DNA of 43,222 nt from positions 1-43,222 of the forward strand of contig JAGXIB010000184.1 in assembly GCA_024635865.1 (NCBI GenBank), read 5' to 3'. Made by a program: the position numbers and the translations under genes. Position 1 is the stretch's first letter. The number at the start of each line of letters is the position of its first letter. The stretch is from Flavobacteriales bacterium (GTDB taxonomy: Bacteria; Bacteroidota; Bacteroidia; Flavobacteriales_D; Parvicellaceae). Under the pieces are notes generated by a model. It saw only the letters and a list, made by a program, of their open reading frames with translations, searched no databases and had not been told where the DNA came from. This document shows positions 31,700 to 36,353 of the stretch, piece after piece.

Positions 31700-34225
31700 A
31701 TGGAAGAAGTTCAAGACATAGCACCAGAAAAGAATAAAAAAGAAAAGAAGCAATTAGGAAAAAAGTCTAAATGGTTTTTCGTTTTATTATTATGGGTAGG
31801 CGTTCTAGCTCCAGCTAGCTTAGTTTACTTTATGTTAAATATTGCAGACGATGGAACGCTGCCAAGTTTTGAATTGTTAGAAAACCCTCAATCAAATTTA
31901 GCATCAACAATTTATACCCAAGATAATGTAGAACTAGGGAAATATTTTAGAGAGAATAGAACGACGGCTAAATATAACGAACTTTCTCCTTGGCTTCAAA
32001 AAGCTTTAGTAGGGACAGAAGATGAGCGCTTTGAAGAACATTCAGGTGTTGATGTTAGAGCGTTGGGGAGAGTTGTAAAAGGGGTTGTTTTAGGTCAAAA
32101 AAGTCAAGGAGGAGGTAGTACAATTTCTCAACAATTGGCAAAACTTTTGTTTCCGAGAAAAAAACTAACAAAGTGGGAGTTAGTAAAAAGAAAATTTAAA
32201 GAGTGGATTATTGCTACTAGGCTAGAGAAAAACTATACAAAAGAAGAGATCATTACAATGTATCTTAACAAGTTTGACTTTTTAAATAACGCAGTAGGAA
32301 TTAATTCTGCAGCACAAGTTTATTTTGGGAAAACACCCTTAGAATTAGAACTTCATGAAGCAGCAATGTTAATAGGGATGGCAAAAAACCCCTCGTTGTT
32401 TAACCCTTTAAAAAGATATGATACTGTTCAGCATAGAAGAAATGTTGTTTTCTCGCAAATGAAGAAAAGTAAGTTTATAACTCAGGAAATTTATGACTCA
32501 GTAAAAGTATTACCACTAGACTTAAATTATACTAGAGTAGATCATCAGTCTGGTTTAGCCCCGTACTTTAGAGAAACATTAAGGAAAGAGGTTACAAATA
32601 TTTTAGGAGAAAAAGACGAAGGAGGGAACTATGTAATTATAGATGCAGACGGCGAGCCTTATAACATATATTCTGATGGGTTAAAAGTTTATACTACAAT
32701 AGACTCTAGGTTACAAAAATATGCTGAATATGCTGTTCAGGAACACCTGAAGTTTGAATTACAAGAAGACTTTTTCAAAAATAATAAAAGATGGAAAAAT
32801 CCTCCGTTTTCGAATGATTTATCCTTAGGTGAGATTGATACTTTGATGCAAAGAGCTAAACGAAGGTCTAAAATGTATAAGTCTCTTATAGGAAAGATTT
32901 GTAGTTATTGCGAAAGAACACAGTCTCTTCATAGGGTAGGGGATCACTACCACTGCGACCACTGCGACAACGATACTAAAATTCATACAGAAAAAGAAAT
33001 TGATGAAATTTTTAATAAAAAACGTAAAACGAGAGTATTTGACTGGAAATCAAAAGGCTATGAAAAAGACACCTTAATTTCTGCAATGGACTCTATTCGC
33101 TATTACAAAAGTTTATTAAGAGCTTCAATGATTTCTATTAACCCTCATAATGGGTATATAAAAGCCTGGGTTGGTGGAACAAATTTTAAACACTTCAAAT
33201 ATGACATGGTTAGAAATGGTAAAAGACAAGTTGGATCTACTTTTAAACCTTTTGTTTACGCAACAGCGATAGAGGTAGGAGCAATTCACCCCTGTGACCA
33301 AGTTCCAGATATGCAGTATTGTGTTGACGTTCCTTATAATGCAAATAGAAATAAAATGTGGTGCCCAGGTAATGCCGGAGCTAGGTATACAAACGAAATG
33401 ACACCTTATTCTTTTGCTTTAGCTTCTTCGATGAACAACATTACAGCGCATATAATTGGTAAAGATGGAATGCCACAAAAGGTGTTTAATCGTGTTGCAG
33501 AGTTAGGGATAGATACTTCTATGCTTGAGCCCGTTCCATCAATGGCTTTAGGGGTTTTTGACTTGTCCGTTTATGAAATGGTGAGTGCGATGACAGCTTT
33601 TGTTAATAACGGGGTTTATATTACTCCAACTTTTATTTTAAGAATAGAAGATAAGAATGGAAACGTAGTATACGAACCAAAGCATAAAGCCAAAGAAGTT
33701 TGGGCAGAGAATACAGCTTATACAATGCTCCAAATGATGAAAAGAGTTACCTCTGGAATGCAGCACCCCACAGCTAAAGGAAGCAACGGAAGAAAACTTA
33801 TTGGGGGGACAGCGATAAGAATAAGAGGAAGACAAACTGAGAAAAGACCCTATGCAGGTCTTAAAATGCCTATCGCAGGAAAAACAGGGACAACTCAAAA
33901 TCAGTCAGACGGTTGGTTTATGGGCTTAACCCCAGACTTAGTGAGTGGAGTATGGGTAGGGGCTGAAGATCGTTCTGTTCGATTTAGGAGTTTACAGTTG
34001 GGAATGGGAACAAATATGGCATTGCCTATTTGGGCTTATTACATGCATAAGGTCTATAATGACTCTACCTTAAATATTTCCCAAGGAGATTTTCCAAAAC
34101 CTCCAAGTGTTACTCAAGACCCTTTAAATTGTTTTCAGTACGAGATGGGTCAACCCAGCATTGACGATTATAACAACGAAGGATTTGATGGTTTAAATAG
34201 CCAAGGTCAAGAACAGGAGTGGTAG
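31700..34225 (+). CDS. class A penicillin-binding protein (PBP1A-like) with Cys4 insert
   Basis: An 841-residue bifunctional peptidoglycan synthase. A cytoplasmic basic tail (1-24) and one membrane helix (25-47) precede the glycosyltransferase domain (about 65-245), which has catalytic E107 in TEDERFEEHSG and the GGGSTISQQLAK motif. The transpeptidase domain has S513-TFK516, SMN (577-579) and KTGT (728-731). Between the domains, at about residues 400-424, is a CxxC-x14-CxxC knuckle (C401, C404, C419, C422; CSYCERTQSL, then HYHCDHCDN). I do not expect this in typical PBP1A sequences. It faces the periplasm, so it could bind metal or form disulfides. The gene is third in the operon after pheS. 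Confidence 0.94.
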   Translation: MEEVQDIAPEKNKKEKKQLGKKSKWFFVLLLWVGVLAPASLVYFMLNIADDGTLPSFELLENPQSNLASTIYTQDNVELGKYFRENRTTAKYNELSPWLQKALVGTEDERFEEHSGVDVRALGRVVKGVVLGQKSQGGGSTISQQLAKLLFPRKKLTKWELVKRKFKEWIIATRLEKNYTKEEIITMYLNKFDFLNNAVGINSAAQVYFGKTPLELELHEAAMLIGMAKNPSLFNPLKRYDTVQHRRNVVFSQMKKSKFITQEIYDSVKVLPLDLNYTRVDHQSGLAPYFRETLRKEVTNILGEKDEGGNYVIIDADGEPYNIYSDGLKVYTTIDSRLQKYAEYAVQEHLKFELQEDFFKNNKRWKNPPFSNDLSLGEIDTLMQRAKRRSKMYKSLIGKICSYCERTQSLHRVGDHYHCDHCDNDTKIHTEKEIDEIFNKKRKTRVFDWKSKGYEKDTLISAMDSIRYYKSLLRASMISINPHNGYIKAWVGGTNFKHFKYDMVRNGKRQVGSTFKPFVYATAIEVGAIHPCDQVPDMQYCVDVPYNANRNKMWCPGNAGARYTNEMTPYSFALASSMNNITAHIIGKDGMPQKVFNRVAELGIDTSMLEPVPSMALGVFDLSVYEMVSAMTAFVNNGVYITPTFILRIEDKNGNVVYEPKHKAKEVWAENTAYTMLQMMKRVTSGMQHPTAKGSNGRKLIGGTAIRIRGRQTEKRPYAGLKMPIAGKTGTTQNQSDGWFMGLTPDLVSGVWVGAEDRSVRFRSLQLGMGTNMALPIWAYYMHKVYNDSTLNISQGDFPKPPSVTQDPLNCFQYEMGQPSIDDYNNEGFDGLNSQGQEQEW

Positions 34226-34343: not shown

Positions 34344-36353
34344 ATGAAAATATTGAAGATTTTTACTTGTTTCTCAGTGCTTTTAATCCTTTCTCATGGG
34401 GTTTTCGCACAAAAAAACTTTGCAACAGACGCAGATTTTGCGTTTAAGAACGAAAACTTTTACTCTGCTACAGAAATGTACAAAAAAGCGATGTCTAAGG
34501 CAAAGCCAGAAGAAAAAGCTCGAATGAACTTTCAATTAGGGGAAAGTTACCGTTATCTTTTAGAGCCTGATCAAGCTGAGGTATACTATGGTAAAGCGAT
34601 AAGATTAAAGTTTGATAAAACAAACCCTGATGTCATTCTTAAGTTAGCAGACGTTCAACGTCAACAAGCTAATTACAAAATGGCTAAGAGAAATTATGAA
34701 AAATATTTAGAGGTTAAGGCTGGAAACGAAGAAGCTAAAAAAGGGATAGAGTCATGTGAGCAGGCGATTGGATGGATAAGCGAGCCAACAAAACACATTA
34801 TTCAGCAAGAAATTCAACTAAATACAGATAAGTATGATTATTCTCCTACTTGGGCAGATAAGAAATATAATGAGTTGGTTTTTGCTTCTTCTAGAAGTGG
34901 AGCTACAGGAGATGGAGTAGATTTAAGAACAGGAGAAAGTTATATGGATTTATGGATTACCACTAGAGATAATAACGGAAAATGGGGAGAGCCTGTAATT
35001 CTTGATGCTACCATAAATACCCCAGACAATGAAGGGTCTTCAATTTTTAACTACAAAGGATCAAACCTTTATTTTACAAGGTGCCCAGTTATTAAAAAGG
35101 AAAACATCGGGTGTGATATTTTATTAGCATCTAGATCAGGGAGCTCTTTTAAAGATGCTGAAAGTTTAGGTTTAAAAGGAGACTCTGCAGGAAGTGACAC
35201 AATTACTGTTGGTCACCCAGCAATTAACAAAAAAGAAACTTTAATTATTTTTGCTTCAGATATGCCCGGAGGTCTAGGAGGTAAGGACTTATGGTATTCA
35301 ACTTACGATAAGAGAGAAGATACTTGGACTAAGCCTGTAAATTTAGGAGCATCAATCAACACACCAGAAAATGAGATGTTTCCTTTTCTTGATGAAGATG
35401 AGAACTTATACTTTTCTTCTAACGGGTTAATAGGGTTAGGTGGATTAGACATGTTTAAAGCTGAAAAAATAGCTGAAAACAAATGGGGAAATGCAGCTAA
35501 CTTAAAGTATCCTTTAAACTCTGCAGGTGATGATTACGGAATCATATTTGAAAAAAGAACAGATCAGAAAGGGTTCTTTACTTCTAATAGAGAAGGAGGA
35601 AAGGGACAAGATGATATTTACAACTTTAGCTTACCAGATGTAAAATATATTTTAGAAGTGTATGTTAAAAATAAAGAAACGAATGAACCAATTCCAGGAG
35701 TAACAATTACTTTAATGGGAAGTGATGGTTCTCAAGTAGTTAAAACTACAGATGAAGAAGGGAAGTTTATTTTTGATGAGGAAGGAGGAAACAGGTTTGT
35801 TAAGGAAAACACAAACTATGGTTTACAAACTAAGAAAGATGAGTTCTTAGCTGCTAAAACTAAATTTTCTACGGAAGGAGAAGAATCGTCTAAAAGATAC
35901 ATTGAAGAAGTGTTCATGCAGCCTGCAAGTGCAGATGTAGTTATTGACTTTCCAGAAGTTCAGTATGCTTATAACAAATCAGAGTTACTAGTAAATGAAG
36001 CGACAAACGCAAAGGATTCATTAAACTTCTTATATAATACTTTAATGGAAAACCCAACAATTATTATTGAATTACAAGCTCATACGGATTGTAGAGGTAG
36101 AGACGCATATAATGAGGAGCTGTCACAAAGAAGAGCTCAATCTTGTGTTGATTATTTAGCTTCTAAAGGAATTCCTGCAGAGAGAATGATTGCTAAAGGA
36201 ATGGGAGAAACAATGCCTAGAGCTTTAGGGTTAGAGTGTGATACGATTAGTAAAATGGCAACTAAAGAAGAGCAAGAGGCCGCACACCAAAGAAATAGAC
36301 GAACACAGTTTAGAGTTTTAAGTTATGATTATAAACCAACTGGAGGGAAGTAA
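34344..36353 (+). CDS. porE: PorE-like OmpA/PD40 protein of the type IX secretion system
   Basis: A 669-residue exported protein with a signal peptide (1-22, ending GVFAQ). The order is TPR-like helices (about 27-145), PD40/beta-propeller repeats (about 160-430, e.g. ELVFASSRSG, LYFTRCP, NLYFSSNGLIGLGGLD), a carboxypeptidase-regulatory-like domain (about 436-520) and a C-terminal OmpA-like domain (about 538-660). The OmpA domain keeps the diaminopimelate-binding pair D582 (HTDCRGR) and R597 (LSQRRA), 15 residues apart, and NRRTQF. This architecture matches PorE, which links the T9SS to peptidoglycan, though Bacteroidota carry several paralogs. It is monocistronic and followed by a strong terminator. 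Confidence 0.82.
   Translation: MKILKIFTCFSVLLILSHGVFAQKNFATDADFAFKNENFYSATEMYKKAMSKAKPEEKARMNFQLGESYRYLLEPDQAEVYYGKAIRLKFDKTNPDVILKLADVQRQQANYKMAKRNYEKYLEVKAGNEEAKKGIESCEQAIGWISEPTKHIIQQEIQLNTDKYDYSPTWADKKYNELVFASSRSGATGDGVDLRTGESYMDLWITTRDNNGKWGEPVILDATINTPDNEGSSIFNYKGSNLYFTRCPVIKKENIGCDILLASRSGSSFKDAESLGLKGDSAGSDTITVGHPAINKKETLIIFASDMPGGLGGKDLWYSTYDKREDTWTKPVNLGASINTPENEMFPFLDEDENLYFSSNGLIGLGGLDMFKAEKIAENKWGNAANLKYPLNSAGDDYGIIFEKRTDQKGFFTSNREGGKGQDDIYNFSLPDVKYILEVYVKNKETNEPIPGVTITLMGSDGSQVVKTTDEEGKFIFDEEGGNRFVKENTNYGLQTKKDEFLAAKTKFSTEGEESSKRYIEEVFMQPASADVVIDFPEVQYAYNKSELLVNEATNAKDSLNFLYNTLMENPTIIIELQAHTDCRGRDAYNEELSQRRAQSCVDYLASKGIPAERMIAKGMGETMPRALGLECDTISKMATKEEQEAAHQRNRRTQFRVLSYDYKPTGGK

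Follow-up and report, generated by a model that had tools for sequence, protein, structure and literature searches.

The window analysed here, a stretch of 43,222 nucleotides of Flavobacteriales DNA, carries on its forward strand (positions 31700..34225) an open reading frame whose 841-amino acid product was identified by domain searches as a class A penicillin-binding protein (PBP) of the PBP1A type; all protein features given below lie on the same strand. A glycosyltransferase domain (residues 81–255, 31940..32464; Pfam Transgly, E=4e-54) and a transpeptidase domain (residues 480–746, 33137..33937; Pfam Transpeptidase, E=1.7e-15) are present in one chain and both score above the Pfam cut-offs, as is characteristic of class A PBPs. 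Since the motifs EDERF (at 107), STFK (at 513, with Ser513), SMN (577) and KTGT (728) are all in place, the enzyme looks intact. The best NCBIfam match, TIGR02074 PBP_1a_fam (E=8e-139), reached 463.8 bits and thus stayed below the curated cut-off of 508.75; the protein is called PBP1A-type here, without assignment to TIGR02074.

The two catalytic domains are connected by a linker (residues 353–472, 32756..33115) that aligns to no PBP of solved structure. The N-terminus of the protein is Lys-rich and is followed, as judged by eye, by a single hydrophobic segment at approximately residues 25–47 (31772..31840), a putative membrane anchor. It follows that the linker should be periplasmic, in agreement with the first-pass annotation of this DNA. 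The same annotation had placed a CxxC-x14-CxxC motif between the two domains, and this was borne out: C401, C404, C419 and C422, with codons starting at 32900, 32909, 32954 and 32963, form a C-x2-C-x14-C-x2-C motif between the Pfam bounds of Transgly and Transpeptidase, within a predicted Cys4 zinc-ribbon insert (residues 398–423, 32891..32968). The histidines that had also been pointed out do exist in the window protein (five in the linker, at 411, 416, 418, 421 and 429) but are not conserved among homologs and are, by this comparison, incidental to the window's genus.

Downstream of the PBP gene, at 34344-36353, there is a gene for a TPR/OmpA protein with a carboxypeptidase-regulatory-like segment, which we take to be PorE-like. 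In the other genomes that were examined, this gene is not a neighbour of the PBP gene.

Conservation and distribution of the linker insert

Homologs were chosen by the length of the linker and not by the motif, which yielded 116 linkers of at least 112 residues and 48 shorter ones. The full ligand set was found in 113 of the 116 long linkers and in none of the 48 short ones, the three exceptions among the long linkers being two unrelated inserts of family f18 and a sequence in which some bases are ambiguous. The motif is thus not a chance occurrence, and the ligands are inseparable from the insert. The f18 orthologs L069 and L072 have a different long insert, free of cysteines, at the same position of the linker.

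Among the insert-bearing sequences, the first three cysteines and the glycine that precedes them (G398) are invariant, and the arginine two residues after the second cysteine (R406) is conserved in 99%. The fourth ligand is a histidine in all six sequences of family f13 (CNYNPNH, CDYNNKH and CDFDEKH). The surface outside the ligands varies. Motifs of individual members include CPECxRP...C-x6-C, CPNCHRR...C-x4-C, CANCGRR...C-x4-C and CSYCERP...C-x2-C. At the level of sequence, a zinc ribbon or a pair of zinc knuckles is recognised by two C-x(2-6)-[CH] pairs that are kept together, as they are here, and the observed variation in spacing (2, 4 or 6 residues within the second pair, 13–36 residues in the hairpin between the pairs) is typical of zinc ribbons.

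We searched 395 genomes of the class with profile A2, which describes the insert, counting a match only when it extended over the full length of the profile; families were tallied by hand. Full-length matches were obtained in 56 of the 395 genomes, from families f1, f7 and f9 and from nine families outside the window's order (f58, f62, f66, f74, f75, f83, f94, f100 and f109), while the remaining 37 matches covered only the flank. With f2, f3, f5, f10 and f13 added, the insert is present in 17 families. It is therefore not peculiar to the window protein, as had been supposed; though widespread, it occurs in a minority of the genomes sampled, and the opposite case, a Cys4 segment in most PBP1A proteins of Bacteroidota, was not observed either. 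In a sample of 395 genomes from the phylum, full-length matches were found in two only, both from the window's own order, and none was found outside the class.

Closer to the window, all genomes of the same family that were examined contain an insert-bearing ortholog, with the exception of G011, and two of the orthologs are 82% identical to the window protein. Beyond the family but within the order, the insert is present in f2, f3, f5, f7, f9, f10 and f13 and absent from f4, f8 and f11; in f6, a remnant with a single C-x2-C is left.

The expectation that the ordinary linker of Bacteroidota is shorter and free of cysteines held true: the median length was 89 residues, against 124 for the long linkers, and 47 of the 48 short linkers contained no cysteine. 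Class A PBPs without the insert, for example those of f17 (presumably Flavobacterium-like), have the same domains as the window protein and are 45–50% identical to it on both sides of the insert, whereas their linker is approximately 35 residues shorter and lacks cysteines. A second PBP1A-type gene, with a short linker and no insert, is located in the window's own genome (G000:C39 18708-20963; loci L002 and L003). It matches the insert query in the flank only and groups with other insert-less paralogs of the family.

Genomic context and history of the insert

The order gldH – PBP1A – scoAB (scoAB encoding the subunits of a CoA-transferase) was found in insert-bearing members of f2, f3, f10, f13, f58 and f83 and also in f17, which has no insert. 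Since this arrangement is common to both types, insert-bearing and insert-less genes represent the same orthologous locus. Genomes of the window's genus have the PBP gene elsewhere, beside pheS.

A tree was built from the catalytic domains only. Without constraint, the insert-bearing sequences fell into one group of 50 rows with SH-aLRT support of 96, f74 being placed outside. Several insert-less lines are included in this group, namely f8 together with f11, f4, f6, the group of paralogs and one copy from G011. When all insert-bearing rows, f74 among them, and the order were held as one clade, the resulting tree was not rejected (AU test, p=0.53). The tree agrees with a single gain, which we infer, followed by several losses; this is its simplest reading, although counts of changes alone cannot separate gain from loss. 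Since the insert was apparently lost several times, PBP1A as such does not depend on it for its function.

The lipoprotein gene gldH is situated directly upstream of the PBP1A gene, and a gene for a PSP1-domain protein precedes gldH (loci L206, L207, L209, L211, L212, L213, L214, L216 and L217). This arrangement is kept across orders, irrespective of the insert, and suggests that the gliding-related lipoprotein GldH and PBP1A are functionally linked. We considered GldH, as a conserved neighbour, for the partner of the insert and rejected it: its adjacency is shared by insert-less orthologs and leaves the insert unexplained.

Metal site or disulfides

The transpeptidase domain and C-terminal part of the window protein provided an internal control. 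C541 and C555 (33320..33364) were both present in 98 homologs and both missing from 64, with not a single sequence having only one of the two; C532 and C811 (33293..34132) were both present in 119 and both missing from one, and one sequence had a single cysteine. By this co-occurrence, the two pairs probably form disulfides. They are found with or without the insert, in comparisons that extended to up to 164 homologs. The quartet of the insert behaves differently from these pairs, in that it is kept as four and shows one Cys-to-His exchange. The difference argues for a metal, in a compartment where disulfides probably form. As to that compartment, an exported DsbA-like protein with a CPFC motif and a signal peptide (L157:1420-2199), FrnE-type by eye, is encoded in the genome, and searches of the window's genome, which is 91% complete, revealed neither DsbB nor VKOR.

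We infer that the quartet binds zinc in a ribbon fold, and we give a probability of roughly 0.6 to the reading in which the periplasmic linker contains a structural zinc ribbon, likely a docking or spacer module. The suggestion of a metal site made by the first-pass annotation gains support from the invariant C-x2-C, the C-x2/4/6-C of the second pair and the replacement of the fourth ligand by histidine in one family. The redox-active disulfides that it had also offered fare worse. Two periplasmic disulfides, be they structural or redox-switching, would be in line with the co-variation of the two other Cys pairs of the same protein and with the presence of the DsbA-like protein. However, a histidine as the fourth ligand would leave an odd cysteine, which suits a metal; ligands were lost as a pair in one sequence only (L048), whose linker is shortened; the spacing of the C-x2-C and C-x2/4/6-C hairpin is that of metal ribbons; and the failure to find DsbB and VKOR likewise speaks against disulfides, an arrangement that we regard as improbable.

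Some observations are at odds with a zinc ribbon. The periplasm is oxidising and two apparent disulfides are present in the same protein, which is awkward for free thiolates. In addition, no described family model matched the insert above its cut-off in the family databases searched. Individual members gave weak matches that converge on zinc families (Zn_ribbon_IS1595, TFIIB, GRF, Top1, GATA and ClpX), none of them significant; the best zinc-ribbon family match had E=0.0038, below the cut-off, and the best PDB match E=0.074. DUF4729 (E=0.0012), below its cut-off and matched by one member only, was taken as a chance hit, and ordinary zinc-finger families gave only scattered weak matches. AlphaFold2 predictions made from two sequences were unreliable, with a pLDDT of 62 for the fragment and 31 for the whole protein, the fragment model containing at best a short strand hairpin just before C419. 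No second protein with such a ribbon was found in the window's own genome by the ribbon search, and no related loci were found on viral contigs with the whole protein as the query.

Possible role and related systems

If the quartet is a zinc site, C401/C404 and C419/C422, which lie at opposite ends of a short hairpin, would bind one zinc ion, and approximately 26 residues would fold around the metal as a compact knob flanked by two helices of the linker. This knob would occupy the position of the LpoA-docking insert (ODD) of gammaproteobacterial PBP1A and would most probably act as a rigid module for protein docking or as a spacer, setting either the coordination of glycosyltransferase and transpeptidase or the choice of the envelope partner that is recruited. 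A docking site, which the first-pass annotation had listed among its options, is possible and is the functional guess that we prefer, drawn solely by analogy, even though the gldH adjacency does not track the insert.

A zinc ribbon might, on the other hand, be a pure staple that stiffens the arm between the catalytic domains and has no partner. A passive element of this kind would agree with the variability of the surface beyond the ligands and with the apparent losses, and the Cys4 ribbon of MurT is likewise variable on its surface and unclear in its role (PMC6113224). However, insert-less orthologs at the same locus do with a shorter linker, so that the protein has no need of a staple as such, and conservation extends beyond the ligands to R406 and G398; we therefore consider this explanation rather unlikely. 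Very improbable, in our estimate, is a zinc or redox sensor, in which reversible loading with zinc would tune peptidoglycan synthesis to the zinc or oxidant level of the envelope. A metal-thiolate site that faces the periplasm would presumably respond to both signals, but the strict conservation of four ligands suits a tightly held structural zinc, and no zinc-uptake or stress gene recurred in the neighbourhoods examined.

The analogy behind the docking or spacer module that we favour is with gammaproteobacterial PBP1A, in which LpoA is docked by the lineage-specific ODD insert (Typas et al. 2010, PMC3060616). In both proteins, a lineage-specific insert is located between the two catalytic domains. 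The phmmer blocks between the window protein and the gammaproteobacterial PBP1A structures 4oon and 3udf end at residues 314/351 and restart at 473/474, leaving a gap over this linker, and with the window linker alone as the query no structure of a PBP was matched at E-values up to 10. There is no sequence similarity between ODD and the insert. To our knowledge, ODD is not a Cys4 module. In a clade of Bacteroidia, PBP1A may have acquired a zinc-ribbon domain for docking in the periplasm, a counterpart of ODD–LpoA of independent origin through which an envelope partner would license cell-wall synthesis, though we put this forward tentatively.

The insert is a real accessory part of a well-known enzyme and is named in no database used here. 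No paper describing it was found in the open-access literature searched, which does not prove that none exists, and no paper on the regulation of class A PBPs in Bacteroidota was found there. Regulation of gammaproteobacterial cell-wall synthesis from outside takes place at accessory inserts of class A PBPs, and a conserved, putatively metal-binding insert in the periplasmic linker offers a concrete, small and testable handle on PBP regulation in Bacteroidota. With a site that probably holds zinc and, in the same exported chain, two cysteine pairs that probably form disulfides, the protein is also a clean comparative case, one that bears on how thiolate–zinc modules survive outside the cytoplasm.

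The profile of the insert matched a Mur ligase family protein at E=2.8 only. In MurT of the GatD/MurT amidase, a Cys4 (RanBP-type) zinc ribbon is inserted in the Mur ligase domain (PMC6113224). Like the predicted ribbon of the PBP described here, this ribbon is an insertion in a peptidoglycan enzyme, occurs in only part of the family and has no clear role (PMC6113224), whereas MurT is a cytoplasmic enzyme and the host domain is unrelated.
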